This document shows, in pieces, positions 3,013 to 21,588 of a stretch of DNA of 64,000 bases. Location: the NCBI GenBank assembly GCA_027486795.1, contig JAIXOI010000035.1, positions 62,001-126,000 on the forward strand. The letters run 5' to 3'. How positions within the stretch are numbered: the stretch's first letter is position 1; every line of letters starts with the position of its first letter. This DNA is from Sphingobacteriales bacterium. GTDB taxonomy: Bacteria > Bacteroidota > Bacteroidia > Chitinophagales > CAIOSU01. A program made the translations under genes and the position numbers. The notes beneath the pieces were generated by a model that made no database searches, was not told the origin of the DNA, and saw only the letters and a program-made list of their open reading frames with translations.

Positions 3013-3924
3013 CTACCGCTTACCTAGAAACGTCCAGCGAAGCTCATTTAAATACCACTTTATCTTTTCCGCCTTGCTTTTCCCCTCCAACTCAACACTA
3101 AGCGAAGTAAAAATGGCAGGATTGAGCACCCTGCGCAGTTGTTTGCCTATCCATGAGTCGCTGGCGTAGGGTAGTTTTTGGTCGGTAAGGTATGGTTTTA
3201 GGGTTGGTAATATCGTTTTAAAAAACGTATTGCGGTTGTGCCAATACAATTCCTTTTTGCGCTCAGGCATTACCTCCATACCCAAGTGGGCTGTTAGGTG
3301 GTGGTGGTCGAGTAGCAAGTAGCTTTGGCTGTGGGCAAATACATTGTGTGCTAAAGTTGCATCAATAAAGGGTGTACCCAGTATAATATCGCTAAGCACA
3401 AATTTATTAAGCAAACTGCGATGAAACACAAAACAATCATAGCCAGGATGTGGGTTTCCGGTTTGGGCCCAAATAAGCGGCAATTGGTCGGGGCTATCAT
3501 ATATAGGCGCTATTCTGCGCCTGTTTATAATCAAGGCATCGTGTCCTTGGTTTATATAAGCTGCTACAACTTGGTAGAAATAGGGCTGCAATATTATGTC
3601 GGCATTGGTATATATCAGGTACTCTGCATCGGTGTTGGCAGCAAGTGCTTCCAAAATTTCTTTTATGAATGGTAGCTTTTTAGTGGCCTTGATACCCTTA
3701 ACATCCAAAACAGAGCGGGTGAGAAAGGGTAGGAGTGTGAAGTAGGATGGCACTACAGGTTCATCTTCAGGGAAGCAAACAGCCAACAAATCTACCCGTG
3801 CTCCATTAGCCTGAGCTTGAGCTACTTGCATTGACCGAAACACTATAGGCTGAACCCGATATAACTCAGTGCCTTGAGGGGCATTTACTGGATTGATGAT
3901 GTGCGCGAAGTGTAACAAGTGCAA
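3013..3924 (-). CDS. Putative glycosyltransferase, GT-A-like, TTG start
   Basis: This 303-residue cytosolic protein has a DxD-like metal/nucleotide-sugar motif in the context YLIYTNADIIL (about residues 101-111). A stretch rich in His and aromatics (GYDCFVFHRSLL, then LLDHHHLTAHLG) resembles the acceptor side of GT-A enzymes. No ATG is available: an in-frame stop lies just upstream and the first usable codon is TTG at 3922-3924, with another TTG two codons on. It is divergent from the glycan operon beginning at 4041, with 116 bp between them. The donor and acceptor are unknown and the family assignment rests on the short motif, so it could be a nucleotide-sugar-binding protein of another kind. 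Confidence 0.6.
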   Translation of the reverse strand: MHLLHFAHIINPVNAPQGTELYRVQPIVFRSMQVAQAQANGARVDLLAVCFPEDEPVVPSYFTLLPFLTRSVLDVKGIKATKKLPFIKEILEALAANTDAEYLIYTNADIILQPYFYQVVAAYINQGHDALIINRRRIAPIYDSPDQLPLIWAQTGNPHPGYDCFVFHRSLLNKFVLSDIILGTPFIDATLAHNVFAHSQSYLLLDHHHLTAHLGMEVMPERKKELYWHNRNTFFKTILPTLKPYLTDQKLPYASDSWIGKQLRRVLNPAIFTSLSVELEGKSKAEKIKWYLNELRWTFLGKR

Positions 3925-4040
3925 GCAGCAGCTATTTTAATGGCTATTTTACTAAATTAGCAAGAATAATAGGTATAATCGCAAAGAGCACAAAGTAAAT
4001 AAGATAGGGTGCCCTTCAGATAAAATAAATAAAAGGCTTA

Positions 4041-5222
4041 ATGGCTTTAGATACCGGTAAGTTTACACTCCCTACACCCGCTTGGCTGCAAACACTCCGG
4101 TACAATGAGTGGTGGCGGTTTAAGGTGCCGTTTTTACTCGGTGTTTATTTTTGGCAGATTGAGTTTACCAATATCCCAATGGATGCATTGTGGCTAAATG
4201 CGGCGCTATTGGTTGTTTGGATGTTCGGAGCAGCGGGTTTCGGCTATTTCGTAAACGATTGTTTCGATATTGAGCAAGATGCAGCTGCTGGTAAACCTAA
4301 TCGCTCGGGCAGTTTGAGCGTAGCTTCCCGATGGCTGGTGGCCACCGGCTTGCTAGCAATAGCCTTGTTGCCTTGGTATTGGTTGCCCACCGCCACAGCA
4401 TCGTGGTTATTAGTTGGGATACATTTGTTATCATTCTTACTTTATTCTATCCCACCTGTCCGTCTAAAAGAGCGGTATTATTTAGGCGCTATTACCGATG
4501 CATTGTATTCATACTTTTTGCCCGTATTATTGGTGGCTTACACGGCGTGGCTCATTAACAATCTTCCCCCCAACTACTATATACCAAGTACCTATCAGGC
4601 TTTAGCACTTGCAACTTGGGCTATGGCGGCGGGGTTGCGTAACATCATTCAGCATCATATATTGGATAGGCGAAAAGACCGCATTTCAGGTACGGCTAAT
4701 ATCATCAATAGGTATGGATTGCGTTTCAATGTCAATCTTTTACGTTGGCTGTTTATACCTTTGGAGATTGTGCTTTTTGCCGCTGCCGTTTACTTTAGAG
4801 GCAATTATACTACACTGTTATACAGCCTTCTAGGTTTCTTTTGCCTTTGGCAATTGTTGCCCGTAGTGCGTATCAACCTTCGGCAGCCGCACAATTTTCG
4901 GCTCGATTTAGGCCTATTTACGCTCAATGCCTTTTATGAGATATACCTGCCGTTCGGTTTTTTGATCGCCTTTGCCATAGCACAACCTTGGTATTGGGCA
5001 ACCATATTGCCTTACCATTTCCTATTCCCAAACCCACTGATATCGTTTACACTTTGGATACTGGCTTTAGTATTTCATCACCTAGTGCTTCGTTGGCTAT
5101 GGATAGTAAGGCTTATATTGAGCCGCATTGTCAATTACTCCATTCATTATACCCACGTAGCTTACCGTTATGCACGTGGCATTAAGCCATATGACCCTCG
5201 AGAGCAACATGACACCAGATAA
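4041..5222 (+). CDS. UbiA-superfamily membrane prenyltransferase
   Basis: The 393-residue product has roughly eight or nine hydrophobic segments. It carries the UbiA signature NDxxDxxxD as NDCFDIEQD (about residues 75-83) and a second Asp-rich site, LDRRKD, near residue 210, at the spacing usual for motif 2. UbiA enzymes transfer a prenyl chain from a diphosphate onto an aromatic or sugar-phosphate acceptor in the membrane. The family also includes decaprenyl-phosphate phosphoribose synthases, which make lipid-linked sugar donors. It is the first gene of a five-gene coupled run, and the next gene overlaps it by 14 bp. This context favours a lipid-sugar role over quinone synthesis, but that is inference. 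The C-terminal tail is basic and polar. Confidence 0.75.
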   Translation: MALDTGKFTLPTPAWLQTLRYNEWWRFKVPFLLGVYFWQIEFTNIPMDALWLNAALLVVWMFGAAGFGYFVNDCFDIEQDAAAGKPNRSGSLSVASRWLVATGLLAIALLPWYWLPTATASWLLVGIHLLSFLLYSIPPVRLKERYYLGAITDALYSYFLPVLLVAYTAWLINNLPPNYYIPSTYQALALATWAMAAGLRNIIQHHILDRRKDRISGTANIINRYGLRFNVNLLRWLFIPLEIVLFAAAVYFRGNYTTLLYSLLGFFCLWQLLPVVRINLRQPHNFRLDLGLFTLNAFYEIYLPFGFLIAFAIAQPWYWATILPYHFLFPNPLISFTLWILALVFHHLVLRWLWIVRLILSRIVNYSIHYTHVAYRYARGIKPYDPREQHDTR

Positions 5223-6045
5223 CCAAATAGTAAACGGCCTATGGATTGGCACACGGCTGAGCAACCTAGAGTTGCTCACCATGATGACGTTTATGGAGCA
5301 GGGCCATCGGTTTAGGCTATGGGCATATGAGCCGCTGGAAACCGCTTTGCCCGCAGGAGTGGAGGTAATGGATGCAAACGAAATTATACCCGCCGACCGC
5401 ATTTTTTTATATAAGCATGCTAATGCCTATGGGCACGGAAAGGGAAGCGTTTCGGGCTTTTCCGACATATTTAGGTATAAGCTATTGCACGACCATGGCG
5501 GTTGGTGGGTTGATATGGATGTAGCTTGCTTAAAACCATTAAACTTTACGGAGGAGTACGTTTTCCGGAACCACCATGAGCTTACCATGGTGGGTAATGT
5601 AATGAAATGTCCCAAGGGCAGTGCCTTAATGTGGGACTGCTTTACCGAAGCCACCGAGAAAGTGACGGACGAGAACCGTGATTGGCACTTGCCGATACAG
5701 ATTCTGAACGACCAGATTGAGAGCCACGGTTTGTCTTCGTTTATCAAATCGGGCATCTCAAACTACGATAAGTGGGATGAATTGAAGCGCTTTGTGCTTG
5801 GTAGGAAAACGCCGCCGAAAGGCTACTACTTTATCCATTGGATGAACGAAGAGTGGCGCAGCCGTGGTTTAGACAAGAATAAAGTAAAGGCTCGATCGTT
5901 GTTAGGGCAAATGATGATTGACAGAAGATTGATGCCAGCCTACTACTCCCTTTGGGATTTGATGCAAGAAGCCCTATATTACAGCAAGTTAGCCACTTAT
6001 TTACCTTGGCTAAAGGATAAAACGCCACAATCAATACACCGATGA
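5209..6045 (+). CDS. DxD-containing glycosyltransferase (GT32-like sugar-binding region)
   Basis: The 278-residue protein contains HGGWWVDMDVACLKPL, the GGxxxDxD arrangement of the DXD sugar-binding glycosyltransferase family (GT32/capsular-synthesis-like). This family binds a nucleotide sugar and Mn2+. ATG at 5209 (MTPDNQIVNG) was chosen because the GT-A core begins immediately after it. An ATG at 5191 would add six residues. It overlaps the UbiA-like gene by 14 bp and shares the ATGA junction with the next glycosyltransferase. It has no signal peptide or membrane segment, so it acts in the cytosol or at the membrane surface. The sugar and acceptor cannot be predicted. Confidence 0.75.
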   Translation: MTPDNQIVNGLWIGTRLSNLELLTMMTFMEQGHRFRLWAYEPLETALPAGVEVMDANEIIPADRIFLYKHANAYGHGKGSVSGFSDIFRYKLLHDHGGWWVDMDVACLKPLNFTEEYVFRNHHELTMVGNVMKCPKGSALMWDCFTEATEKVTDENRDWHLPIQILNDQIESHGLSSFIKSGISNYDKWDELKRFVLGRKTPPKGYYFIHWMNEEWRSRGLDKNKVKARSLLGQMMIDRRLMPAYYSLWDLMQEALYYSKLATYLPWLKDKTPQSIHR

Positions 6046-6881
6046 AGACATTTTGCACTGTATCTACTAGAAGCCATTTAAACCAAACCTTAGGTTTGGT
6101 TCGTTCTGTTGCGGGCTATGGTGGCCAATGGCATTTCAGGATATTGGTAGTGGAGCCCGAACAAGGTATAATAGAAGGGAATGAAGGCGATGTGAAGTAT
6201 ACTATTGAAGGCTTACACTTGCTTCGTCAGAACGAAGCTGCGGCATCGTTAATGGATCATTACCGTAAAAAACCCGACAACCTTCGATGGTCGCTGAAGC
6301 CTATTTGGATGGACTATTTGTTGGAGGAAGGCTATGAGCAGGTTATTTATGTCGATAACGACATTGTGTTTTTCAACGACCCAACCTTCCTTTTTGAAGA
6401 GATGAACACGGCTAGCATATTACTTAACCCGCACTGGCGCATAAAAGAGCCAGACGTTGATGCGGACTGGTTTATCGTTAACTTTAGAGATGGTGTATAT
6501 AATGGTGGCTTCGTTGGCGCTAGCCAAGAGGGTAGAGAGGCTCTACAATGGTGGAGTCGCTGCTGTGAGTTTGCTTGCGAAAAGGACTACAAACGCGGTT
6601 TGTTTGATGACCAAAAGTACTTAGACTTAATGCCCGCTGCTTTCGAGGACGTAAAAATTTTACAACACCGAGGCTGTAACGTGGCTTATTGGAACGAATA
6701 TGAAAACATGCGTAGCATGGTAAATGGGGAAGTAATGATAAATGAAACTTACCCAGTAATATTTGTACACTTTACCGACGACCTTATTAAGCAAATGGAC
6801 AGGGGTAATGAGGTTGAGCTAAGTAAACTATGGTTTCGCCACCAAGCCCGCAGCGTGCAACAAACCGAAAATTATGGCTAA
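6042..6881 (+). CDS. Glycosyltransferase with DxD motif (GT8-like fold)
   Basis: The 279-residue protein has the metal-binding motif YVDNDIVFF (about residues 103-111). The later signatures are YNGGFVG, FDDQKYLDLMP and HRGCNVAYWN, the order seen in bacterial GT-A enzymes related to family 8 and nucleotide-diphospho-sugar transferases. Its ATG lies inside the TGA of the preceding gene (ATGA), and its own end overlaps the next gene by 8 bp, so translation is probably coupled. The role is most likely addition of one sugar during assembly of the glycan encoded by this locus; linkage and donor are unknown. Confidence 0.72.
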   Translation: MKTFCTVSTRSHLNQTLGLVRSVAGYGGQWHFRILVVEPEQGIIEGNEGDVKYTIEGLHLLRQNEAAASLMDHYRKKPDNLRWSLKPIWMDYLLEEGYEQVIYVDNDIVFFNDPTFLFEEMNTASILLNPHWRIKEPDVDADWFIVNFRDGVYNGGFVGASQEGREALQWWSRCCEFACEKDYKRGLFDDQKYLDLMPAAFEDVKILQHRGCNVAYWNEYENMRSMVNGEVMINETYPVIFVHFTDDLIKQMDRGNEVELSKLWFRHQARSVQQTENYG

Positions 6882-7929
6882 GCGTCGGTTTATTGGCACT
6901 TGGTGGTTTTTGGTATTGTTCAATTTCGCTTTGTTTGTGCTGCTTACCGAAATAACCTTGAGGGTAATTGGCACCTACAAAAACTACGGCGAACGCAATT
7001 ACGGTCTGTTTATCGACTATTTTAAGCATCCATACCCAGGGCCACTATGCGCTTGGGCGCCTAACTCCACTCGCATTAGCGCGACTCAAGAATTTGACTA
7101 CCCTGTTACCACCAACAGTCTTGGGGTAAGGGATATTGAACACACCGTAACCAAACCGGCTGGAACTAAGCGTATTGTGGTTCTTGGGGATTCGTTTTCA
7201 GAAGGGGCAGGCGCACCTTTTGATTCGGCATGGCACCAGCGAATGGCTTGGTATATTACCCAAGATAATAGTCTAGGTAATTGGGAAATCATTAATGGAG
7301 CCGCTTCGGGCGGTGACCCATTTTATGGGTACGACATGCTTCGTAGGAAATTGCTTTTCTATGAACCTGATATAGTGATACAAGTGTTTAATGCCACCGA
7401 TTGGGATGACTATATGGCTCGTGGTGGATTGAAGCGCTTCGTAAACGATAGTACCACCCAATGGAAACCCAAAAACGAGCTGTTGCATACTGCTTACAAG
7501 TATAGCCATATTGTGCGCCTGATAGTAAAGGAGGTTCTACATTACAACGATTTTTACCAAACGCCAGCTGAACAGGAGGCAGTTAGAAGTGCCTCTATGG
7601 GGGACTATGAGCGTTTACTTTTGAAAACCGATTCATTAGCTTCGGCTAATGGTGCCGAATTGTTCGTGGTGTTTCAACCAATGAACTACGAATGTGTTCG
7701 TTTTAGCTTAGAGCCGCAAACCGATACCTTACAAAATAGACTGAAAAGCCATGGGCTTAAAACAGTTGATTTGCTGCAGCTGCTGCCCAGAGATATGCAA
7801 TTGCACATGGAAGATTATTTTTGGAGAATAGATGCACATATGAACAGCAAAGGTTATGATGCTTGGGGAAAAAGCATGTACACTTTTTTTGTAAACAACG
7901 GTACCCTAAAATCTATTGACCTGCAATGA
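6874..7929 (+). CDS. Membrane-anchored SGNH/GDSL hydrolase, possible glycan O-acyltransferase
   Basis: The 351-residue protein has one N-terminal hydrophobic anchor (about residues 7-28). A periplasm-facing SGNH domain follows: block I VLGDSFSEG with Ser107, an Asn/Gly block around NGAASGGDP, and the C-terminal block DAHMNSKGYDAWG supplying Asp320 and His322. The D-x-H-x-N-x-x-G form resembles AlgJ/AlgX-type enzymes that acetylate or deacetylate polysaccharides. It overlaps the upstream glycosyltransferase by 8 bp and shares ATGA with the following SGNH paralogue. A role in O-acylation or deacylation of the glycan made here is inferred from context; an esterase or lipase is the alternative. 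Confidence 0.75.
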   Translation: MAKRRFIGTWWFLVLFNFALFVLLTEITLRVIGTYKNYGERNYGLFIDYFKHPYPGPLCAWAPNSTRISATQEFDYPVTTNSLGVRDIEHTVTKPAGTKRIVVLGDSFSEGAGAPFDSAWHQRMAWYITQDNSLGNWEIINGAASGGDPFYGYDMLRRKLLFYEPDIVIQVFNATDWDDYMARGGLKRFVNDSTTQWKPKNELLHTAYKYSHIVRLIVKEVLHYNDFYQTPAEQEAVRSASMGDYERLLLKTDSLASANGAELFVVFQPMNYECVRFSLEPQTDTLQNRLKSHGLKTVDLLQLLPRDMQLHMEDYFWRIDAHMNSKGYDAWGKSMYTFFVNNGTLKSIDLQ

Positions 7930-8894
7930 CTAAACCTAACAACAACAAACGCTGGTTTAAGCTGATTATCGTTGCTTTTACACTGATGGCGGTATTTGTA
8001 GCCCTGAAAACATACGTTGGCCCTGAACCAGAGACGGGTAACATTTACAACTGGAACCATTACAATGATAGCTTGAACAGAGCAAATCAAAAGTTTGCTG
8101 AAGGAAATCCGCACCATTTTACTGACCGCCCTAGGAACATAGAAAAGGATAGTGGGGTTTTCCGAATTGCAGTATTGGGCGATTCATTTGTTTGGGGTGA
8201 CGGGCTGCCATATGATAGTGCTTGGAGCCATAAACTGGAGCAGAAAATACTAGCCAAATACCCAAATGTTGAAGTGATGCATTGGGGTATTAATGGCTGG
8301 TCAACAAAGGATGAATTGGCATTCTACTTAGCCGATGGAAGGAAATACAAACCCGACTTATTGATAATTGGTTTCGTGGATAATGACCCTGATATGGGAC
8401 GATTTCAGCACATGGATCCGCATTTTAGAGAAAATTACTGGTATTTATATAAAATATGGCCTGGCCTTGCAGAGAAGATTTTTTCAGATGCTTACGCCAA
8501 ATCTTATGATGCTTGGTTGAATCGCTTGTATGGAGAAGAGAATCTTACCATTTACAAGCAGCTATGGACCGGATTTATGGATACTTTAGTCAAAAACCAG
8601 CAAGATTATTTTGTGGTGCTCACGCCAGCATGCATTTTTTACTCGTGCGACAAATACTACAACATCATTGATTCTGTTTTTGCTAGTATGCCGTTCGAAT
8701 ATATTAATGTAACTGCCGCTTGCAATGAAAAACTATCAACGTATAGCTACAACGATTTATTGGCAAACCCTGCCAACTATCACCCAGGCACTAAATTGAC
8801 CAACGTATTTGCCGACGAAGTTTTAGAGTATTTGGAAAGCTCTGGCAGGTTGCCCGTGATGGTTAAAGATAGCGCTGATGCATTCCCTCAATAA
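7926..8894 (+). CDS. Second membrane-anchored SGNH hydrolase
   Basis: This 322-residue paralogue of the preceding gene has an N-terminal hydrophobic anchor (about residues 10-26). Block I is VLGDSFVWGDG with Ser87, and a GFVDNDPDM stretch could be block III. The probable catalytic His lies in NYHPGTKLTNVFADEV near the C-terminus. The spacing before that His differs from the upstream copy, so the catalytic Asp is less clear. It is the last gene of the five-gene run starting at 4041. Its 3' end overlaps by 32 bp, tail to tail, the 3' end of the minus-strand radical SAM gene at 8863-10467. Acyl transfer or removal on a surface glycan is the likely role; the substrate is unknown. Confidence 0.7.
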   Translation: MTKPNNNKRWFKLIIVAFTLMAVFVALKTYVGPEPETGNIYNWNHYNDSLNRANQKFAEGNPHHFTDRPRNIEKDSGVFRIAVLGDSFVWGDGLPYDSAWSHKLEQKILAKYPNVEVMHWGINGWSTKDELAFYLADGRKYKPDLLIIGFVDNDPDMGRFQHMDPHFRENYWYLYKIWPGLAEKIFSDAYAKSYDAWLNRLYGEENLTIYKQLWTGFMDTLVKNQQDYFVVLTPACIFYSCDKYYNIIDSVFASMPFEYINVTAACNEKLSTYSYNDLLANPANYHPGTKLTNVFADEVLEYLESSGRLPVMVKDSADAFPQ

Positions 8895-10467
8895 GTTCTT
8901 GCGCCGTATGTGTGTTCATGTGTTCCAAAACCTTAAACGGCTCTGCAAAGTTCATGTCCCGAGCAATCCATTGGGCATTATCAATTCTAACAACTACAGC
9001 TAAAACTTCCTCTATTTTGGCTTGATGGCCTTCAACTACATAAGCACCGCTATGTATCAGCGGCAAATATTTATAAGCCGCAAACAATGCAATTAAGTAC
9101 TCGTTGGGCGTATATGCTTGAAAGAGCTTATGCAAGTTCGAGAATAGCTTTTGAGTATCTATTTCCTGCTGTTTTTTGCCGCTTTCATCATCCGCATAGG
9201 GGTAAGCACTGGCATAAGTCAATATCTCGTACAATATATTCCTAACCGCGTCATTGTTATGTTCAGGTTCGATAATGCCGCTACTAACTGCTCCATCAAT
9301 ACTTTCCTTAACTTTTTTGTCACGGGTATTTATGGCATTTTCGATAATGCTGGTTTGCTCATACCAAGCTACCACGAGTTTCACCATGTCGTCGAACATG
9401 TGTTTGTTGTACTGTTCTGTCGGTGTATTGCTCGGTAGCTCAACCGACCGATAATAACCCACAATGTGCTCCAATTCGGCAGCTGGCAAGTTTACTAAGC
9501 TATACTCTTGTGGTAGGATAACGGTATTAAAAAACACTTTTATGCCTTTTTCATTGCAATACTCAACAATACCCGGCATCTCTTGCCAATTGAGTGTTAT
9601 CGGGCAAATGGCAAAACTCATTTCGGTGCCCTTGCGCTTGGTGTATTCATAAAAGTATTCGAAGTTTTCCCATACCCTGTCAAATTTGGCATTCAGCCTG
9701 ATACTCTCGTACGTTTCTTTTACTATCGAATCTATGGAAAGAATGATGGAGCATTGCAACTTTTCCAACAATGTTTTGGTACGTTGGTTTAGCACTGTGG
9801 CATTGGTGGTAATATGTATGCGGGTTTCAGGATTATGAATAACTAAGGCATCCCAAATTTGGTAATAAATATCAATCAGAAACGGCTCGCCACCTAAAAA
9901 ACGGGCATCCTTTAAGTAGGGCATAAAGGGTATCAACTGCTCCACAAAGGCGCTGTCATAAGGGTTCGTAAACGGCGATGCATTTTCACGGTTCTTGCGA
10001 ATGGAGGAGGAGAAGTAGCCGTTGCACATTACACACTCCAAATTACAAGTGTTGCTCAACTCAAACTCCATGCTGGTGGGCATGGGCTGCCACTTACCTC
10101 GGGTAAGCCCTTCCTTTATCGATTTGCCAAGTTGCACTAGTTTGCTATCCGCGCTCCAATCGTATCCACGGGCACGCATGCCTTTAAAGTTGTGGCTTAA
10201 CAATTGTTTTTTGCAAAGCGAGCAACCGCCATCTAGGTTGTTATCTTTTATATACCCGCGCAAATCATCGGCTTGCTTACTGTACCAAATGTCGATAAGG
10301 CTATCGTTGGGGTAAGTGCCCAAAACATGCGTGCGGTTGTAACAACAAGCGGTTACATTGCCATTTTGCTCGAAGTTTAGGTTCGTAAACGGCGCATGGC
10401 ACAATACACTCTTATCGGGTGTGATGCGCACGGCGTTGTAGGCTCTAATGATTTCGGGTGATAGCAT
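8863..10467 (-). CDS. Radical SAM protein with N-terminal cysteine-rich twitch-like domain (copy 1)
   Basis: The 534-residue protein has the radical SAM cluster CxxxCxxC in CNLECVMC (Cys141, Cys145, Cys148). Glu/Gly motifs follow (LGGEPFL), then a TIM-barrel pattern (IHITTNATVL, LSIDSI). Ahead of the core sits a cysteine-rich region (LCHAPF, VTACCYNR, GGCSLCKK; Cys23, 41, 42, 82, 85). It resembles a SPASM/twitch auxiliary iron-sulfur module, which more often lies after the core. ATG at 10465-10467 aligns with the paralogue upstream. The residues after about 330 are not recognised. It lies between glycosyltransferase operons and no precursor peptide was seen, so modification of a sugar or lipid-linked intermediate is as likely as peptide modification. 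Confidence 0.8.
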   Translation of the reverse strand: MLSPEIIRAYNAVRITPDKSVLCHAPFTNLNFEQNGNVTACCYNRTHVLGTYPNDSLIDIWYSKQADDLRGYIKDNNLDGGCSLCKKQLLSHNFKGMRARGYDWSADSKLVQLGKSIKEGLTRGKWQPMPTSMEFELSNTCNLECVMCNGYFSSSIRKNRENASPFTNPYDSAFVEQLIPFMPYLKDARFLGGEPFLIDIYYQIWDALVIHNPETRIHITTNATVLNQRTKTLLEKLQCSIILSIDSIVKETYESIRLNAKFDRVWENFEYFYEYTKRKGTEMSFAICPITLNWQEMPGIVEYCNEKGIKVFFNTVILPQEYSLVNLPAAELEHIVGYYRSVELPSNTPTEQYNKHMFDDMVKLVVAWYEQTSIIENAINTRDKKVKESIDGAVSSGIIEPEHNNDAVRNILYEILTYASAYPYADDESGKKQQEIDTQKLFSNLHKLFQAYTPNEYLIALFAAYKYLPLIHSGAYVVEGHQAKIEEVLAVVVRIDNAQWIARDMNFAEPFKVLEHMNTHTAQELIEGMHQRYL

Positions 10468-10479
10468 AGCTTCTATTAC

Positions 10480-10510
10480 CAAATATAGCTATTAAATAGT
10501 TCTAGGTGAA
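10480..10510 (-). promoter_or_regulatory. Bacteroidota-type promoter of radical SAM copy 1
   Basis: On the minus strand, TATATTTG (10480-10487) matches the TAnnTTTG -7 element and ends 12 bases before the ATG. The -33 position, 20 bases further upstream, reads TTC (10508-10510), one mismatch from TTG. The paralogue has the same octamer at the same distance, which supports the call. The 45 bases between the two paralogues leave room only for this promoter. Confidence 0.5.
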
Positions 10511-10512
10511 TT

Positions 10513-12129
10513 TTAGAGAATTTGTTCAAACAAACTAGCATACTTCTCAAACACCAATTCCTCTGATGGTTGTTTCAAAAAGCGAAGCTGCAAGAATGCC
10601 CCATTGGCACCAAGGTCGTAGGCCGCTTGGTCTTGTTTGGGTGTTCTTTCCAATATGGGCATTACCATGGCTATTCGGCGTTCTAATAAACCATCATTAC
10701 TAGTGCCCATCAGTTTATCCAGCACCTTCAATGCTTCCATAAAGTTCTGGATGTGCCTTAGGGGCGTTGATTGCAGTCGCATTTGAGTAATGGCTTCTGG
10801 TAGGTTAGGAGCATTTAATAAGGTCAACAATTGCTCACTTTGCTCCAATTGATTGGCAAGTTTAACGCCCTCGCCAATATGATTCATCTCAGCATACCAA
10901 CAAATGATGGTGCTGGCCAGCAGCTGTGTATCCTCATCAATAGGCAGTAAAGACTGTATGTATTCCGCATCCAGCACCACTTGCTTAAATAGCTCTAAAT
11001 CCGCCTCAGGGTTTTCCTCCTTTTCATACAGCCAATACTTCAACGTGCCAATGTATTCTTTATATACTGCCACATTGTTGGTAGCAGTTGGGTTGCTGGT
11101 AACTGCGGGTAATCCACGCTCAAAGTGATTGATGACCTCTTTTAGTCTGTCCTTATCTAAGTATTGCAACGATAAGTACTCGGGTGCCCAAACAATGTTA
11201 AAGTGCAGGTTTATGCCTTCCGCATTGGCCACTTGCAGCATGTGCGGCATCGTTTTCCAATTGGTGGCTATGGGGCATACTGCGAAGGTTAGATAAGTCT
11301 TTTTCTCTCGAGTCAGTTTTTTAAAAAACTCCAAGTTTTCCATCATCCGGTCATACTTGGCATTTAAACGGATGCCTTCGTAGGTGTCTTTATCTAATGA
11401 ATCGATGGACAGGATAATAGCCACGTTAAGCTTCTCAAGTATGTTCTTACCACGATTGTTTAGTATAGTGCCGTTGGTGGTAATATGGACTTTTATCTTT
11501 GGGTTAACCTCAATGATGCGCTCCCATATATCGTAGTATATATCAATCAAAAACGGCTCGCCACCTAAGAATTTCATATCCGTAAGGTGCGGCATAAACT
11601 CCGTAAGCTGATTCACAAAATCTGCATCGTAAGGACTTTGCAGCGCAGGTAAGTGCTCCCTGTTTTTGCGAATACTAGAGGAAAAGTGCCCTGAACACAT
11701 AGTGCACTCTAAGTTGCAAGTATTACTCAGCTCAAATTCCAAAATACGCGGGTAGCCCAAGCTGTTGATGCCCAAAAACGATTTTAGCTTATCGGTAGTA
11801 GTGGGCGCAGGGGCAAATTCATCGTAATGATATGCTTTGGTGCCTTTGTAGTTGCCTGCCAAAATCAAATCTTGGCAAGTGCTACATCCACCACCCAAAT
11901 CATTTTTCTTGATATTATCGCGTAGTTTTTCGGCGGCAGGGCTAGTCCAAGCTTCATTTATGGTTTGCTTAGGATAACTGCCCAGCACTTCTTTTCGATT
12001 ATAACAGCATGCCACCATATTGCCATTAGGCTCAAAATTGATGTTCACAAAAGGGGCATGACAAAGCAAGCTTTTGTGGGTAGTTCGGCGCGCGGCATTG
12101 TATGCCTGTAGTATATCTGGGCTAAGCAT
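10513..12129 (-). CDS. Radical SAM protein with N-terminal cysteine-rich twitch-like domain (copy 2)
   Basis: This 538-residue tandem paralogue of the gene at 8863-10467 is alignable from the first residue: both start MLSP[DE]I and share LCHAPF, ACCYNR and GGC..C. The radical SAM cysteines are in CNLECTMC (Cys138, Cys142, Cys145), followed by LGGEPFLIDIYYDIWE. The C-terminal 200 residues diverge from copy 1 and are helical and leucine-rich. The copies are separated by 45 bp, yet each has its own promoter, so two distinct but related activities, or a heteromer, are plausible. ATG at 12127-12129 is preferred over the upstream TTG because the TTG overlaps the -7 promoter element. Confidence 0.8.
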   Translation of the reverse strand: MLSPDILQAYNAARRTTHKSLLCHAPFVNINFEPNGNMVACCYNRKEVLGSYPKQTINEAWTSPAAEKLRDNIKKNDLGGGCSTCQDLILAGNYKGTKAYHYDEFAPAPTTTDKLKSFLGINSLGYPRILEFELSNTCNLECTMCSGHFSSSIRKNREHLPALQSPYDADFVNQLTEFMPHLTDMKFLGGEPFLIDIYYDIWERIIEVNPKIKVHITTNGTILNNRGKNILEKLNVAIILSIDSLDKDTYEGIRLNAKYDRMMENLEFFKKLTREKKTYLTFAVCPIATNWKTMPHMLQVANAEGINLHFNIVWAPEYLSLQYLDKDRLKEVINHFERGLPAVTSNPTATNNVAVYKEYIGTLKYWLYEKEENPEADLELFKQVVLDAEYIQSLLPIDEDTQLLASTIICWYAEMNHIGEGVKLANQLEQSEQLLTLLNAPNLPEAITQMRLQSTPLRHIQNFMEALKVLDKLMGTSNDGLLERRIAMVMPILERTPKQDQAAYDLGANGAFLQLRFLKQPSEELVFEKYASLFEQIL

Positions 12130-12141
12130 GGCTAATACATT

Positions 12142-12172
12142 CAAATATACCTATTTTTACAGGGTTCTACAA
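12142..12172 (-). promoter_or_regulatory. Bacteroidota-type promoter of radical SAM copy 2
   Basis: On the minus strand, TTG (12170-12172), 20 spacer bases and TATATTTG (12142-12149) form a complete -33/-7 pair. The octamer ends 12 bases before the ATG, exactly as for copy 1. This is the cleanest promoter of its kind in the window after the one at 34142. Confidence 0.6.
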
Positions 12173-12215
12173 TCCAATTATCCTGAATCAAGATACCCAT
12201 ATCATCATTGCATCG

Positions 12216-13271
12216 GTGCACCGCAGGGCGTTTTCAGAAACGTTTATACGCCAGCATGTGGCGCGTTTGCCGTTTAAGGTAAGCTATGCTTGGGGGGCAT
12301 ATTTGGGTTATGGGCTAAATGATACCGAGCTATTGCCCGAATGGCGAGCGAGACTGCCCTTTTTAGGAGAAAGTGCATTGCAGGACAAATGGGTAGCAAC
12401 TATCAAAAAGCAAAACGTAAAATTAGTGCTGGCAGAGTATGGCCCTGTAGGCGTAAATTGGTTGCCCGTTTGTCAAAAAGCAGGCATCCCATTACTCGTA
12501 TATTTTCATGGTTTTGATGCAACAAGGGGCGATATCGCAAAGCAATATAAATTGAAATACAAGGAGTTATTTAAATGTGCCTCAAGTATTTTTGTAGTAT
12601 CTGAACCAATGAGGCAATTGCTATTGAGTTGGGGAGCACCTGAAGCGAAACTGGTATTAAACCCTTGTGGTGCAGATGGTTCCATGTTTAGATACCAAGA
12701 GCGGGACAGTAGCCAGCAAACGTTATTATCAGTAGGTCGCTTTGCCGCCACTAAACGCCCCGATTTGGTGATTAAAGCTTTTACCCAAGTACTGAAAGAT
12801 GTGCCCAAGGCGCATTTGCGCATGGCTGGCGCAGGAGAGATGTTGAAAGAATGTAAAGCTCTGGTGAGTAAATTGGGACTTGATAACCAAGTGCATTTTA
12901 TCGGGGTAATTACCCCTGAGCAAGTAGTGCACGAAATGCACGAGGCCAACGTATTTGTGCAACATTCCATGACTACACCTGACGGTGAAACGGAAGGCGC
13001 ACCAGTGGCCATAATGGAGGCTGGTGCCGCAGGCTTACCAGTGGTAAGTACCCTACATGCAGGCATACCAGAGATAGTTGAGCACGACAAAACTGGGTAC
13101 TTAGTACCTGAAGGTGATGTAGATGGTATGGCCATGTATTTGATAAAACTGTTGCAAGACGGCCAGTTGGCGAAACAAATGGGACTTGCCGCATCCGAAA
13201 GGATTGTAGCACATTTCTCTTTAGAGCAAAATATCCGCATCTTAACACAAACCATCGAAAAGCATTTGTAG
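12216..13271 (+). CDS. GT4-type glycosyltransferase (GT-B fold)
   Basis: The 351-residue protein has the GT-B donor domain of family 4: LLSVGRFAATKRPDLVIKAF, a nucleotide-binding GAGEMLKE, and the EX7E signature as EGAPVAIME near residue 270, followed by GLPVVST. The only conventional start is GTG at 12216. However, the in-frame codons just upstream read HIIIASV, which looks like the first beta-strand of the fold, so translation may begin at a non-standard codon such as CTG at 12183. The frame is open back to 12126. It opens a three-gene operon with the amidotransferase (2-bp gap) and a GT2-like gene. It transfers an unknown sugar during surface glycan assembly. Confidence 0.8.
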   Translation: MHRRAFSETFIRQHVARLPFKVSYAWGAYLGYGLNDTELLPEWRARLPFLGESALQDKWVATIKKQNVKLVLAEYGPVGVNWLPVCQKAGIPLLVYFHGFDATRGDIAKQYKLKYKELFKCASSIFVVSEPMRQLLLSWGAPEAKLVLNPCGADGSMFRYQERDSSQQTLLSVGRFAATKRPDLVIKAFTQVLKDVPKAHLRMAGAGEMLKECKALVSKLGLDNQVHFIGVITPEQVVHEMHEANVFVQHSMTTPDGETEGAPVAIMEAGAAGLPVVSTLHAGIPEIVEHDKTGYLVPEGDVDGMAMYLIKLLQDGQLAKQMGLAASERIVAHFSLEQNIRILTQTIEKHL

Positions 13272-13273
13272 CT

Positions 13274-15118
13274 ATGTGCGGAATATTGGGCGTATTACCA
13301 ACCATTGAACAGAAGCGATTTCAATCGGCATTGGACCGATTGGCACACCGTGGACCCGATGGAGAAGGTATTTGGAAACATCCGTTGGGTAATATTACAC
13401 TAGGGCACCGCAGGTTGGCTATTATCGACCTAAAGCCTGAGGCCGCGCAGCCCATGTCTTTGGGCAATCTTAACATCACCTTCAATGGTGAGATATATAA
13501 CTATCGTGAACTTAGATTGGAATTGGAGGGGCTGGGTTCACATTTTCGCACTGAAAGCGATACTGAAGTGTTGCTGGCTGCTTACCGTCAATGGAAAGAG
13601 CGTTGTCTGGATAAGCTAAAAGGTATGTGGGCGTTTGCCATCTGGAACGATGACGACAAAACCTTGTTTTTGGCCCGCGATAGATTCGGTGAGAAGCCAT
13701 TATTCTATTCGCAAATAAACAACCAATTCGTTTTTGGCTCAGAGATGAAAGCTTTGATGGCTTTGGGTGAAGGATGGATGCCGAGTGCAAATTTCAAAAA
13801 ACTCGTCAAACAATACGATCGCTACGAAAGCAGCAGTGATACTTTGGTGGAGGGCATTAGCCGTTTCCCTGCAGGGCATTATGGGGTGTTTAAAGATGGC
13901 GAGCTGAGGTTAACCCAGTATTGGGATACTTTATCGCACTTAGTAAATGCCTCTAGCTCTTTTGAAGCACAAACCGAGCAGTACCGGCACCTTTTTGGTC
14001 ATTCAGTGGCATTGACCCTGCGTGCAGACGTGCCCGTTGGGGCGGCTATTAGTGGTGGATTAGATTCATCTTCGGTGCTTGGGGCAGCTTGCCAATTTAC
14101 GGGGAAAGATAGATTGAGTATGGCTTTTACCGCTACTTTCGCAGGTAGTAGGGTTGACGAAAGCGAGTATGCAAGGCAGCTAGCCATTGATAAACACATT
14201 CCGCTGCATGAGGTTTCCCTTGACCCATTGAAGGCTTTGGCCAACTTATCCGACGACCTCTATTGTTTTGAAGAGATATACCGTACCCCGCCTTCGCCAA
14301 TGATGGAGTTGTATAGCCATTATCGAAAGCAGCAAGTGTTCGTAAGTGTCGATGGGCATGGGCCAGATGAAATGTTCAGCGGCTATGGCAACTTTATGCT
14401 ACTAGCTTTAATTGATGCGGGAATCGACCCATTGAAATGGAAAGACATCATAAATACTTACGAAAATGCACAACCTGATAGGGGCATTGTAAAGGCGCGA
14501 AAAGCAGGTAACCATCAAGTGCTTTTGATGCAGGCTTACCGCTTTAAAGAACAATGGTTGGACGAGAAACTACCCAATACCTTCCGCGACGAACAGCTGC
14601 ATAAGGAGGCCATTAAAAAGATGGGGTACTATAATTATGCCTTGTATCAACTGTTTCATTATACTATATTTCCAACTTTACTCCGCAATTATGATAGATT
14701 CTCCATGCGCTCGGGTGTAGAGATACGGATGCCTTTTCTAGACCCTGAATTGGTAGCCTTTAGCTTCTCCATCCCTTGGCAGAGCAAAATAAAGGAAGGT
14801 TATAGCAAGGCTATTTTGCGAGAGGCCGTGCGACCATGGTTGCCACAAAGTATAGTAGAGCGGAAAGATAAGATAGGCTTTCAAGCCCCATTGGCCGATT
14901 GGCTGCGTGGCCCTTGGAAGGAGTTTTTGCAAGATACTATTGCCGCTGATAACTTTAAAACTTGCGAGTTAATTGATCCAGCTAAAACCATTCAAGTATT
15001 GGACAAAGTTTGGGCAAACGCCCAAGCTACTAATGAAGAAGCTGAAGAGGCATGGTTAGCATTGTCGCCATACCTTTGGCAACAACACTTTTTTAATAGA
15101 GCCATTCAAACTCCATGA
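13274..15118 (+). CDS. asnB: Asparagine synthase-type glutamine amidotransferase
   Basis: The 614-residue enzyme begins MCGILGV, exposing Cys2 as the class II glutaminase nucleophile. RLAHRGPDGEG, GHRRLAIIDL and FNGEIYN follow, forming the N-terminal amidotransferase (about 1-190). The synthetase half has the PP-loop SGGLDSS at 260-266 and VDGHGPDEMFSGY. The length and motifs fit AsnB. Homologues inside polysaccharide loci (WbpS/AsnB-like) often amidate sugar carboxylates rather than aspartate. Its place between two glycosyltransferases points to uronamide formation, but ordinary asparagine synthesis cannot be excluded. It starts 2 bp after the GT4 gene and shares ATGA with the next gene. Confidence 0.85.
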   Translation: MCGILGVLPTIEQKRFQSALDRLAHRGPDGEGIWKHPLGNITLGHRRLAIIDLKPEAAQPMSLGNLNITFNGEIYNYRELRLELEGLGSHFRTESDTEVLLAAYRQWKERCLDKLKGMWAFAIWNDDDKTLFLARDRFGEKPLFYSQINNQFVFGSEMKALMALGEGWMPSANFKKLVKQYDRYESSSDTLVEGISRFPAGHYGVFKDGELRLTQYWDTLSHLVNASSSFEAQTEQYRHLFGHSVALTLRADVPVGAAISGGLDSSSVLGAACQFTGKDRLSMAFTATFAGSRVDESEYARQLAIDKHIPLHEVSLDPLKALANLSDDLYCFEEIYRTPPSPMMELYSHYRKQQVFVSVDGHGPDEMFSGYGNFMLLALIDAGIDPLKWKDIINTYENAQPDRGIVKARKAGNHQVLLMQAYRFKEQWLDEKLPNTFRDEQLHKEAIKKMGYYNYALYQLFHYTIFPTLLRNYDRFSMRSGVEIRMPFLDPELVAFSFSIPWQSKIKEGYSKAILREAVRPWLPQSIVERKDKIGFQAPLADWLRGPWKEFLQDTIAADNFKTCELIDPAKTIQVLDKVWANAQATNEEAEEAWLALSPYLWQQHFFNRAIQTP

Positions 15119-16272
15119 CCCCAAATCCAGCTATAGTTGTGGTAGCCTACAATAGGCCGCAAGCGCTAAAAGGCTTGTTGGATTCGCTTATTAAAGCGGA
15201 TTACCAAGAGTTGGAAGTGCAATTGATAATATCAATTGATGGGGGAGGAGACAAGGCAGTAATAGACATGGCCAATAGTTTCGTTTGGCCGTTTGGTAAT
15301 AAGCTGGTATCAAAACAACCCGTTCGTCTCGGGCTAAAAAAACATATAGTTGCTTGTGGCTCCTTTACCAGATTGTTCAATTCGATAATTTTGCTGGAAG
15401 ACGATTTGGAGGTGGCCCCTGGCTTCTACACTTTTGCCTCACACGCTTTGAAGGCTTGTGCGAACGAGCCAATCATTGCAGGTATCTCCCTTTACAGCTA
15501 CGCCATTTCTGAGTGCACCTACGAAAGTTTTAAGACTTACCCAGATGGGCACGATACTTATTTAATGCAGTTTCCTTCATCTTGGGGGCAATTATGGACA
15601 GAACAACAATGGCATGGGTTTGTTTCTTGGCTGGATAACCACGAAAAACAATCTCATACCAATTTGCCACCTTTTGTACAACGATGGGGCCAATATTCTT
15701 GGAAAAAGCTCTTCCTGCAATATATGATAGAAGAGAGTAAGTATTTCCTTTATCCCAAGCAGTCTTTTACTACCAATAAGGGATACCCAGGCGTTCATTT
15801 TGCTCTCAGGCTCATGCTTTATGATGTACCATTACATAAAGGGAAGGAGCTTACCCAATCGTCCGTAGAAAACCTTCAACGTTTTGATGCTTATTTTGAA
15901 ATGGAACCGGAGACATTGAAACGACTTGTAGGTGAGGAGCTTGAAGATACCTTTGAGCTTAACTTGTTTGAGGCCAAAGACCCAAATGAAGTGAAAGCAA
16001 AATACTTTATCGGACACTTATCTCTATTTGAGTCGAAGCAATTACCCAGCAGTTTTACCAAGGTTATCAAATCTTTTAGCCAACTAACGGAATTGAAACT
16101 AACCCCAACCAATTATTACCAAAGCCCTCGAATAGTGCGAGTAGAAGAAGCCGAATATTATTGGCGTACCCAACGAGGAATCCATAAGCCCAGCACAATT
16201 GGTAAATGGTTTTTTATTGCTAAGTACAACGTCTTTAAGTATCTAAACGCTATTCGTCAAAGGTTCCAATAG
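15115..16272 (+). CDS. GT2-like glycosyltransferase
   Basis: The 385-residue protein starts with AIVVVAYNRPQALKGLLDSL, the typical opening strand of GT-A family 2-like enzymes. It has IISIDGGGD for nucleotide binding and ILLEDDLEVAPGF (about residues 92-104) as the DxD-type metal site. Later motifs FPSSWGQLWTEQQW and NKGYPGVHF recur in bacterial sugar transferases acting on O-antigen or capsule. The last 120 residues are not recognised. It is coupled to the amidotransferase by ATGA and ends the locus. A gap of 107 bp with a new promoter-like element separates it from the TMTC-like gene. Confidence 0.75.
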   Translation: MTPNPAIVVVAYNRPQALKGLLDSLIKADYQELEVQLIISIDGGGDKAVIDMANSFVWPFGNKLVSKQPVRLGLKKHIVACGSFTRLFNSIILLEDDLEVAPGFYTFASHALKACANEPIIAGISLYSYAISECTYESFKTYPDGHDTYLMQFPSSWGQLWTEQQWHGFVSWLDNHEKQSHTNLPPFVQRWGQYSWKKLFLQYMIEESKYFLYPKQSFTTNKGYPGVHFALRLMLYDVPLHKGKELTQSSVENLQRFDAYFEMEPETLKRLVGEELEDTFELNLFEAKDPNEVKAKYFIGHLSLFESKQLPSSFTKVIKSFSQLTELKLTPTNYYQSPRIVRVEEAEYYWRTQRGIHKPSTIGKWFFIAKYNVFKYLNAIRQRFQ

Positions 16273-16379: not shown

Positions 16380-19199
16380 ATGAAGGTTAAAACTACATTG
16401 GGAGAGAAACATTGGTGGATGGTGGCTCTTGTTTTAGGGTTGTTTGCCTTTGTCTTGTATGCCAACACCATTCCAAATAGCTATGCTATGGATGATGAGT
16501 TGGTTACCCGTAACCATCCGCTTACCAGCCAAGGCATAAAAGCCATTCCAGAGATATTTACTTCTTATTATTACGATAACAACATTGGTAATTACTATGA
16601 GTATAGGCCAGTAGTGCTTACCAGTTTTGCCATTGAGCACTCTCTATTTGGCGATAATGCCCACATAAGTCATGCCGTAAATGCACTATTGTATAGCATA
16701 TTGTGCATAGTATTATTCTTCGTTATTCGCTCGTTTAAGCCTGATATAAACTTTTTATATCCGGCATTAGCTACCATTATATTTGCAGCACACCCATTAC
16801 ACACCGAGGTTGTTGCCAGCATTAAAAACCGAGATGAGATGTTTAGCTTCTTGTTTGGTATTTTGGCTATGTTTTGGGGCTTAAAGTATGCTAGAAAGGG
16901 TACGGTCGTTGAATACTTACTGTTCATCTTTTTTATGCTACTCTCCGTTATGTCTAAGCGTTCGGTGCTTAGCTACACTATAATAATCCCATTAGCAGCG
17001 TGTTGGTTTTCGCAAGCTAGTTTAGTAAGGCTTGTCTCTATTTCCTTCCCGTTAATGCTGATTGTGCTGTTCTTTTCGCCAATATACGAGCAGTATATCA
17101 ACTCGCTTATTATTGGGGGTATTATTGGCTTCCCAATAGTCATTTGGGTGCTACGTACCGCAATGACTGAAGGTTGGGGCACTATTGTAAGCAAGACAAA
17201 ATTGGCATTTACTAGCATTGCGGCTAGCCCAACCGAAGAGGCTCCAAAAAATAATAGCACAGTGCAATCGTCGGCACCTTGGCTATCCCTAGCGGCACTG
17301 CTATTACTTACAGCGGGTTCATTACTTTCGCTATACCTTGATTTAAGAGTGTTAATGTATATCTGCCTTTCGCTGATATTTTTGTCCACGTTTTTATTCA
17401 AATCATCATTAAAGGGCTATCCGATAATTGCCATATTTCTCGTTATAGGATTAATCGCTGCTAACTTTCAATTTACGATTATTGCATATGCCATAGTTGG
17501 ACTGTTGGTAGGCGCATTTTTCTTCGGCGGTTTGCCATCAGCGGCCCGAATGATAACCCCAGTGGTAGCCATCGTGGTTGCTGCTGCTTACTTGTTCGGC
17601 ACGCTCAAAATCGGCGATTCTTTTATTGATATTGTAGTTCTAATAGCCATTGTAACAGCACACCATTTTATCAAGAACAAACGTATAATGCCCGCACTGT
17701 TATTGGCCATGGGTATTATGAAACTAATTGCCGAGCCCCAGTACCAGGTTATTTGGATAATGAACTTGGTGGGCGCAGTTTATCTTTTTATCCAACCAAG
17801 AATTAAGCAACCAATGGCTTTTTTCACTGGCTTAGCCACCGCAGGCCTGGTTACGGTATTTGTGCTGGTAATCTTCCCTTTTCAGCCAGTTAACCCTATT
17901 TATGAGCAAAACTTAGGTGCATATTACGAGAGTCTTCCCGACCCATATGGCGATGGTGAAAAAACAGTAACCAATGTAGTTCCGGGCGCAGGTAGGGAAG
18001 TTGATTTTATAGAGAATCCGCTAGTAAAGGAAAAGAAGTTTGCGACACGTTTAGGCACGGCGTCAAAGGTAATGGGCTATTACACATACTTAATGATAGC
18101 TCCAGTGCAGCTTAGATTTTACTATGGTTTCAATCAAATAGAAATAGTCAGGCTTACCAACCCAATAGCTATTGTTTGCCTAATTTCATTCTTGGGCTTA
18201 TTGGTGCTGGCTATTTGGCTGTATAAGCGCGATGCAATGCTAAGCTTTGCCCTACTGTACTTATTGTTTGGCTTGGTGTTTATTTCTAATCTTGGGGTAC
18301 TGCTTACGGGTATTGTTGCCGAACGTTTAGCATTTGGAACTTCATTAGGTTATTGCCTCCTACTGGCTTGGGGATTGATTGGGCTATTTAAAGTTGATGT
18401 TTATGGCGTTGTAAACTGGAAGCAGTTAAAACCTGCTTTACTAATTGTAGTAGTGGCTATAGTTGGCCTTTACGGCACTCGAACAATAATAAGAAACACC
18501 AATTGGAAGGATAAACTGACGCTATACACCCATGATGCCAACATGTCGCCCAACTCGGCAAAAGTACAACAGATGCTAGGCAATGAGTACTTAAACATGG
18601 GTATCAGAGATGAGGTTAACCAAACCAAACATTTTGGGCAGGCCGAAAAATACTTAAAAAAATCGCTTGAGGTTAACCCTAGGTTTCACTCGGCACTGCT
18701 CGATTTGGGTCACCTTTACAGCTTAAAAGAAGACTGTAGCAATGCTGTTATTTACTTAGAACGGTTTATTGCTGTATCGCCTCCGCCGCCATTAGTGCTG
18801 TTTCATTATGCTATTTGTTTAGATATGGTAGGCCGGTATACCGAAGCATTGACCTATTATGAGCGCTACATTGCCGCCGATCCGTATTACACCGCCGGAT
18901 ATTCGAACCTCAGCTATCTTTATTTTAGGTTGGGCAAAATAGATAAAGCTTTGGAAGTAAGTAAAAACGCCATTGCCCTTATGCCCAATGAACCTGATGC
19001 ATATATCAATGTGGGTAAAGTTTATTTGGAGTCAAACCAACCTTTAGAGTCTATTCCTTATTTTGAAAAGGCATATGCATTAAACCCCAATGATTTGAAT
19101 ATGGTGCTGCAATTGTGGGACCTACATACACAAATCGGCGACCCCGCGCGTGGGCAATTTATGAAGGAGCGGGCCATTGCATTGGGGCATAAATTTTAA
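16380..19199 (+). CDS. TMTC-like polytopic membrane protein with C-terminal TPR repeats (GT-C fold)
   Basis: The 939-residue protein has about 14 or more hydrophobic segments over residues 12-700, then a periplasmic TPR region of about five repeats (residues 715-935). Near the N-terminus, MDDELVTRNHPL (Asp38, Asp39) and later AAHPLHTEVVASIKNRDEMF match the layout of TMTC/GT-C proteins. These use polyprenyl-phosphate-linked sugars, with the acidic pair in the first outer loop being catalytic. The TPR part probably binds the protein acceptor. It lies just after the glycan locus and carries its own possible promoter. Protein O-glycosylation is inferred; a purely structural TPR membrane protein is the alternative. 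Confidence 0.7.
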   Translation: MKVKTTLGEKHWWMVALVLGLFAFVLYANTIPNSYAMDDELVTRNHPLTSQGIKAIPEIFTSYYYDNNIGNYYEYRPVVLTSFAIEHSLFGDNAHISHAVNALLYSILCIVLFFVIRSFKPDINFLYPALATIIFAAHPLHTEVVASIKNRDEMFSFLFGILAMFWGLKYARKGTVVEYLLFIFFMLLSVMSKRSVLSYTIIIPLAACWFSQASLVRLVSISFPLMLIVLFFSPIYEQYINSLIIGGIIGFPIVIWVLRTAMTEGWGTIVSKTKLAFTSIAASPTEEAPKNNSTVQSSAPWLSLAALLLLTAGSLLSLYLDLRVLMYICLSLIFLSTFLFKSSLKGYPIIAIFLVIGLIAANFQFTIIAYAIVGLLVGAFFFGGLPSAARMITPVVAIVVAAAYLFGTLKIGDSFIDIVVLIAIVTAHHFIKNKRIMPALLLAMGIMKLIAEPQYQVIWIMNLVGAVYLFIQPRIKQPMAFFTGLATAGLVTVFVLVIFPFQPVNPIYEQNLGAYYESLPDPYGDGEKTVTNVVPGAGREVDFIENPLVKEKKFATRLGTASKVMGYYTYLMIAPVQLRFYYGFNQIEIVRLTNPIAIVCLISFLGLLVLAIWLYKRDAMLSFALLYLLFGLVFISNLGVLLTGIVAERLAFGTSLGYCLLLAWGLIGLFKVDVYGVVNWKQLKPALLIVVVAIVGLYGTRTIIRNTNWKDKLTLYTHDANMSPNSAKVQQMLGNEYLNMGIRDEVNQTKHFGQAEKYLKKSLEVNPRFHSALLDLGHLYSLKEDCSNAVIYLERFIAVSPPPPLVLFHYAICLDMVGRYTEALTYYERYIAADPYYTAGYSNLSYLYFRLGKIDKALEVSKNAIALMPNEPDAYINVGKVYLESNQPLESIPYFEKAYALNPNDLNMVLQLWDLHTQIGDPARGQFMKERAIALGHKF

Positions 19200-21575: not shown

Positions 21576-21588
21576 ACCCTGAAGAACC

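Follow-up and report, generated by a model that had tools for sequence, protein, structure and literature searches.

Here, we describe a glycan gene locus in a 64,000-nucleotide stretch of DNA (the window; contig C33, positions 62001-126000) from the 3.9 Mb genome of an uncultured Bacteroidota, whose closest named relatives are metagenome-assembled genomes from lakes and ponds classified as Chitinophagales or Sphingobacteriales. The locus, which includes a membrane prenyltransferase of the UbiA superfamily and two N-twitch radical S-adenosylmethionine (SAM) proteins, is probably the chain-building half of a dedicated pathway for a surface glycan or glycolipid, a pathway that would be split over two loci, heavily tailored and served by a Wzm/Wzt exporter. 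The evidence was computed and comprises gene content, co-occurrence, linkage, gene fusions, the split locus, the fold and motifs of UbiA, the Wzt domain and the cysteines of the radical SAM proteins. The original prediction had read the genes at 3013-16272 as making a specially modified glycan or glycolipid by an assembly route that was not obvious. Such a product is supported by the recurrence of the gene set, its close linkage and the fusions among its members, and the question of the route finds much of its answer in a second locus of the same genome, which encodes an ABC-2 glycan exporter as well as capping and tailoring enzymes.

In a census of 298 genomes of the order Chitinophagales, the UbiA subfamily was present in 58 genomes and N-twitch radical SAM proteins in 47, with both in 45 (Fisher test, p = 6e-39). 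Since these genomes are related, tests at the genus level give the safer figures, and at that level UbiA was present in 15 of the 17 genera with N-twitch radical SAM proteins (p = 9e-15). Where both genes lie on one contig (at least 29 genomes), they are no more than about 6 kb apart in at least 27. The order of the whole locus is conserved within the genus, that of the window locus holds across genomes down to 76% UbiA identity, and in other families of the order UbiA is found beside GT32, AsnB and SGNH genes together with at least one N-twitch radical SAM gene, sometimes several. A neighbourhood search for UbiA, N-twitch radical SAM and SGNH genes had been put forward as the check on the prediction; the set recurs, with very strong co-occurrence and tight linkage.

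The surroundings of UbiA were surveyed at 42 loci picked via this gene, so that the neighbour counts describe UbiA loci only; the non-exhaustive contig scan used a four-row UbiA alignment (a 14-row set being too diverse), and neighbouring genes were assigned with per-family hidden Markov models (HMMs). A methyltransferase was found at 30 loci, PhyH dioxygenases at 27, radical SAM proteins at 23, GT32 at 20, SGNH at 17, Wzt at 16 and AsnB at 14, and the immediate neighbours of UbiA were most often the methyltransferase (20), AsnB (12) and GT32 (10). Members of the window set are also joined to one another elsewhere, as UbiA-GT4-SGNH (L052, L053), UbiA-GT4 (L097), UbiA-GT32 (L098) and GT32-SGNH (L060) fusions, and these joinings among four window gene families are a sign of joint action. 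Sampled across the phylum, the UbiA family is uncommon (6 of 296 genomes, including our own), and it also appears in records of Crocinitomicaceae, Neomarinimicrobiota, Chthonomonas and Thermoflexales. The system recurs in lake and soil Bacteroidota and is apparently undescribed: in open-access full texts, including those sought for N-terminal twitch proteins, we found no earlier description of the gene set, although one may exist elsewhere. As a separate observation, four UbiA loci (L052 and L053 from Crocinitomicaceae, L097 and L100) have another tailoring set, which lacks radical SAM genes and comprises 2-oxoglutarate oxygenases (WelO5-like ones and many of the PhyH type) as well as a protein with an HTTM domain.

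The methyltransferase, the PhyH dioxygenases and Wzm/Wzt are all missing from the window locus, yet the methyltransferase adjoins UbiA in most loci elsewhere and the other two accompany it in many. In the census, the methyltransferase family occurred in 49 genomes, each of which also carried UbiA (p = 2e-47; 15 of 15 genera). Within the genus both genes are present but lie on separate contigs (G000-G003), and in other families and genera the methyltransferase, PhyH and Wzm/Wzt genes share one locus with UbiA. Contig C5 of our own genome carries, in order, Wzm, PhyH, an 850-residue methyltransferase-PhyH-PhyH fusion, a further PhyH (four PhyH domains in total) and Wzt, followed by a NodU-like carbamoyltransferase, a WbuX-like N-acetyl sugar amidotransferase and a nitrilase-like protein. 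The same arrangement is found in G003 (94-99% identity), and G001 shares the part from Wzm to Wzt (67-91% identity). No exporter is seen in the window because the pathway is split over two loci in this genus.

By profile, the Wzt tail corresponds to the carbohydrate-binding domain of an ABC transporter of known structure (6o14/7k2t, also 8dky; E = 1e-8), and Pfam Wzt_C exceeds its cut-off in one copy from L061. The Wzm/Wzt pair linked to the pathway and the carbohydrate-binding domain on Wzt are the features expected of ABC-dependent export. Since domains of this type recognise the terminal mark of finished ABC-exported O-antigen chains (PMC11231755), the methyltransferase is a candidate cap enzyme. 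Three further observations were made. Two UbiA and two methyltransferase genes lie close together in L038, L061 and L099, as though the pair had been duplicated as a unit. Contig C11 of our genome (L117) carries a second Wzm/Wzt pair in an ordinary-looking O-antigen locus with GDP-sugar-type dehydratase and aminotransferase genes. On contig C5, about 10 kb from the methyltransferase, PhyH and Wzm/Wzt genes, lies an exopolysaccharide-like cluster (L121:9558-17126) with a Wzc-sized membrane protein, a GT4 and a second AsnB-like gene.

UbiA enzymes are known from the synthesis of quinones, chlorophyll and archaeal lipids, and one branch makes pentose donors. The window protein carries the two motifs N72xxxD76xxxD80 and H205-H206xxD209xxxD213, of which the first is present in 50 of 50 locus UbiAs and the second, as H(Q/H)xxDxxxD, equally in all 50; the second aligns with motif 2 of AfUbiA and MjDGGGPS. 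Its structural model (pLDDT 80) has the nine-helix-bundle UbiA fold (Foldseek 4tq3, E = 4e-6), and archaeal prenyltransferases match it best (Z 21.4 and 19.8, the former to 4od4 with a root-mean-square deviation of 3.5 over 263 residues (VIA)), with a mycobacterial phosphoribosyltransferase lower (Z 15.7). A profile search of the PDB recovered chlorophyll synthase, AfUbiA and DGGGP synthase. Because both Asp motifs and this fold are present and polyprenyl-phosphoribose synthases (PPPRS) stand apart, the protein is predicted from its anatomy to be an enzyme of the prenyl-diphosphate type. A role as anchor or primer would fit its constancy and its fusion to GT4. Going further, UbiA and its obligate methyltransferase partner might make a dedicated prenyl-linked primer or anchor for the glycan that replaces the undecaprenyl-diphosphate sugar phosphotransferase step and yields a prenylated glycolipid, a proposal that we hold only tentatively and regard as doubtful.

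The two radical SAM proteins score 183.6 and 196.0 bits on NF033640 (N_Twi_rSAM; cut-off 170). All 66 homologues compared share C28, C46, C87 and C90, the four auxiliary cysteines, which lie N-terminal to an equally invariant CxxxCxxC motif (C146/C150/C153). The auxiliary-cluster domain, and this domain only, matches BtrN (4m7t, profile E = 1e-11), an enzyme that oxidises a hydroxyl of an aminocyclitol (PMC9012708); BtrN is not among the matches listed by the fold search with the model. Dehydrogenation or epimerisation of a sugar is most likely the reaction catalysed. Residues from about 380 to 539 of radical SAM protein 1 form a helical domain at the C-terminus, which is predicted well but hardly covered in the fold search. 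A third N-twitch radical SAM gene of our own genome (G000:C28:226067-227161; L104) stands alone, beside nucleotidyltransferase, sugar 4,6-dehydratase-like, FdtA-like and GT2 genes.

From these features we infer every chemical step, what the glycan is, which acceptor UbiA uses and which group serves as export signal. The GT32, GT4, GT2-like and GT8-like enzymes would assemble an oligo- or polysaccharide in the cytoplasm, AsnB would amidate a carboxyl group to a uronamide-type product, and the two N-twitch radical SAM proteins may oxidise or epimerise sugar hydroxyls by abstracting a hydrogen atom, the auxiliary cluster relaying electrons as it does in BtrN. The enzymes encoded on contig C5 would then decorate the chain: hydroxylation by the four PhyH domains, O-methylation by the methyltransferase, carbamoylation by the NodU-like protein and amidation by the WbuX-like protein with the nitrilase-family amide hydrolase. 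A methyl group or other terminal mark would be read by the carbohydrate-binding domain of Wzt, upon which Wzm/Wzt would export the chain, and the SGNH proteins could edit acyl groups on the outer side. UbiA, finally, is expected to move a prenyl group from a prenyl diphosphate onto a polar acceptor, probably to give a lipid anchor or primer, or alternatively to prenylate the glycan.

Several points weigh against this proposed pathway. The chemistry and the glycan structure are predicted from genes, and the link between contig C5 and the window consists solely of co-inheritance and of contiguity in other families. The methyltransferase is about as similar to sugar methyltransferases as to those of quinones and lipids, and the fold search with the radical SAM model ranks viperin, BlsE, MoaA and peptide maturases alike and does not discriminate between substrates. 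PhyH enzymes need oxygen and radical SAM enzymes avoid it, which is awkward within one pathway. Moreover, some UbiA loci have no radical SAM, AsnB or transporter gene nearby, so that the core may be UbiA and the methyltransferase rather than the whole set.

Among the other explanations, it is unlikely that we are dealing with a fast-changing locus for an ordinary O antigen or capsule, with the UbiA, SGNH and radical SAM genes as passengers swapped between strains. The tailoring genes do vary widely between loci and the genome has ordinary O-antigen-like genes at other sites, but the methyltransferase was never seen without UbiA in the census, even where the two are unlinked, UbiA is fused to GT4, SGNH and GT32, and the order of the window locus is kept between divergent genomes. 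We also consider it quite unlikely that the product of the two loci, instead of being a cell-bound polysaccharide, is a secreted prenyl phosphoglycolipid resembling moenomycin, with a prenyl ether lipid from UbiA, an oligosaccharide from the glycosyltransferases, uronamides from AsnB and a carbamoyl group from the NodU-like protein. The enzyme classes are indeed parallel, as the moenomycin pathway combines a prenyltransferase, amidotransferases, a carbamoyltransferase, a radical SAM enzyme, a methyltransferase and an ABC transporter, and UbiA is closest to enzymes of the DGGGP-synthase type by both profile and fold. However, polysaccharide export is where Wzm/Wzt with a carbohydrate-binding tail is typically found, no gene resembling MoeO5/GGGPS was recognised at either locus, and MoeK5 is a B12-type radical SAM enzyme, not an N-twitch one.

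It is very unlikely that UbiA is itself a PPPRS/DPPRS whose lipid-linked pentofuranose is used by the TMTC-like GT-C protein, an arrangement known from the three-component systems for Citrobacter O antigens and mycobacterial arabinan. Within the UbiA family, we found a known glycan role only for enzymes of this type (PMC11127046, PMC10994848), and a TMTC-like GT-C protein is encoded close to UbiA both in the window and at 8 of the 42 loci. Nevertheless, UbiA scores only 14 bits on the DPPRS model PRK12324 (cut-off 207), Rv3806c was not recovered by the PDB profile search, PPPRS form a clade apart from the locus UbiAs, and the window locus yielded no phosphoribose phosphatase, MATE flippase or epimerase. 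Motif 2, universal among the locus UbiAs, is found in none of nine Bacteroidota PPPRS, eight of which have KR-x-E at that place; this pattern, consistent with the R366/E369 loop described for PPPRS (PMC11127046), occurs in a single locus UbiA that also has the Asp motif, and the window UbiA has neither the RPxxWxKN nor the KR-x-E signature. Rv3806c has further been reported to have no second Mg site (PMC10994848). An assignment of UbiA to PPPRS/DPPRS was rejected on these grounds. Extremely improbable is a cluster for a ribosomally synthesised and post-translationally modified peptide (RiPP): radical SAM and asparagine-synthase-type maturases are both known from RiPP clusters, and the radical SAM fold also matches SkfB and SuiB, but five candidate glycosyltransferases, Wzm/Wzt and the WbuX-like partner indicate sugars. 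The RiPP cluster was rejected, as the genes overlap or abut and leave no room for a precursor save for short gaps at 3925-4040 and 12145-12215.

The genes of the window locus are listed in Table 1. All genes named in the original prediction are located as described, and UbiA, the amidotransferase and both N-twitch radical SAM proteins exceed curated cut-offs; the boundary was drawn one gene short. The locus runs from a glycosyltransferase-like gene (GTa, reverse) through the forward UbiA-GT32-GTc-SGNH1-SGNH2 series, whose members overlap or abut, and the reverse radical SAM pair to the forward genes for GT4, AsnB, the GT2-like enzyme and the TMTC-like protein. The two proteins called SGNH acyl enzymes are GDSL-type, with one of the two genes passing a cut-off and the second protein lacking its C-terminal Asp. 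As to the five glycosyltransferases that had been named, GT32 and GT4 hold firmly, GTc and the GT2-like enzyme match only below cut-off, and GTa, for which PDB profile matches were noise, gave no usable match. GTa is conserved across the genus and also in another genus of the family, and hhalign aligns nothing beyond one TNADI-like stretch typical of GT-A proteins. A ParB-like role for it was discarded, as the sole Pfam match above cut-off (ParBc_2) is doubtful, being found in three of six homologues and only in the C-terminal part, and GTa was left unassigned.

Table 1. Genes of the glycan locus, with positions numbered within the window.
Gene product	Position	Strand	Remarks
GTa, conserved protein	3013..3924	-	Possible GT-A glycosyltransferase, putative; divergent from UbiA
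UbiA-superfamily membrane prenyltransferase	4041..5222	+	46.3 bits vs cut-off 34.2; core of system
GT32/Caps_synth glycosyltransferase	5170..6045	+	Above curated cut-off; DXD present (WWVDMD)
GT8/Nucleotid_trans-like glycosyltransferase GTc	6042..6881	+	Glycosyltransferase families matched only below Pfam cut-off
SGNH/GDSL protein 1	6874..7929	+	N-terminal membrane segment; GDS and C-terminal DxH
SGNH/GDSL protein 2	7926..8894	+	GDS present; C-terminal DxxH without its Asp
N-twitch radical SAM protein 1	8863..10482	-	NF033640 above cut-off; CxxxCxxC and four Cys of the auxiliary cluster
N-twitch radical SAM protein 2	10513..12144	-	NF033640 above cut-off
GT4 glycosyltransferase	12216..13271	+	Above curated cut-off
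AsnB, asparagine-synthase-type glutamine amidotransferase	13274..15118	+	TIGR01536, 419 bits; Cys2 present
GT2/GNT-I-like glycosyltransferase	15115..16272	+	Glycosyltransferase matches below Pfam cut-off
TMTC-like GT-C membrane protein with tetratricopeptide repeats	16380..19199	+	Directly after the originally drawn locus; kept in genus

That Wzx, Wzy, Wza and an initiating phosphosugar transferase are missing holds inside the locus as far as scanned, but such genes exist elsewhere in the genome. Wzx (PF01943) had no match in the window, Wzy was not found in Pfam scans of the locus genes, to which the search was confined, and neither Wza nor an initiating transferase was found among the genes scanned in the locus. 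Elsewhere, PF02397 occurs on contig C28, Wzx-like proteins on C5, C40, C41 and C53, and Wzm on C5 and C11. In the scans made, glycan functions were not seen in the genes flanking the locus. Two adjoining genes for putative zinc peptidases of the M16 type, the first with an HLYEH motif, lie at 20211-22914 of the window.

Sugar-chain pathways normally have no prenyl-transferring core, and here an enzyme of the prenyl-diphosphate type appears to be the fixed core around which the tailoring enzymes of a glycan pathway vary. If the acceptor of UbiA is the glycan or its carrier, this would be new lipid-glycan chemistry, and if UbiA primes or anchors the glycan, new initiation chemistry. The N-twitch proteins, a large radical SAM family, are placed in a genetic setting that includes partners and an export step, which makes their substrate testable, and the split locus illustrates how an export route can seem missing from a single window.

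Compared with the three-component pentofuranose systems (PPPRS, MATE and GT136; PMC11127046), the locus likewise combines a UbiA-fold enzyme with a possible GT-C, but its UbiA has the second Asp motif and none of the PPPRS signatures, and the accompanying phosphatase, flippase and epimerase were not found in it. With DGGGP synthase, AfUbiA and chlorophyll synthase, UbiA shares the fold, both Mg-binding Asp motifs and the RxxI...DxxxD arrangement, at about 13-18% identity, and differs in an extra, conserved H(Q/H) before motif 2, a C-terminal extension and the glycan context. Moenomycin biosynthesis likewise features a prenyltransferase, an amidotransferase, a carbamoyltransferase, radical SAM chemistry, glycosyltransferases and an ABC transporter, but here UbiA stands in place of MoeO5 and N-twitch in place of B12 radical SAM proteins, and a Wzm/Wzt exporter and PhyH enzymes are present. 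BtrN, the twitch radical SAM dehydrogenase of butirosin synthesis (PMC9012708), similarly combines one auxiliary four-Cys cluster domain with a CxxxCxxC domain, but its cluster domain is C-terminal rather than N-terminal, and the proteins described here have about 150 extra C-terminal residues. Closest in operation are Wzm/Wzt O-antigen systems with capping of the WbdD type (Klebsiella O7, PMC11231755), which share the exporter, the carbohydrate-binding tail of Wzt, a methyltransferase, here the candidate chain terminator, and cytoplasmic glycosyltransferases. No kinase or coiled-coil ruler of the WbdD kind was recognised here, no coiled-coil prediction having been run, and our system differs in having UbiA as a constant partner, in its numerous PhyH and N-twitch radical SAM enzymes, and in its division over two loci in the genus. 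The evidence thus supports a system that works like ABC-transporter-dependent assembly of a capped glycan, and differs from it by the constant pair of UbiA and methyltransferase and by tailoring with radical SAM and PhyH enzymes.

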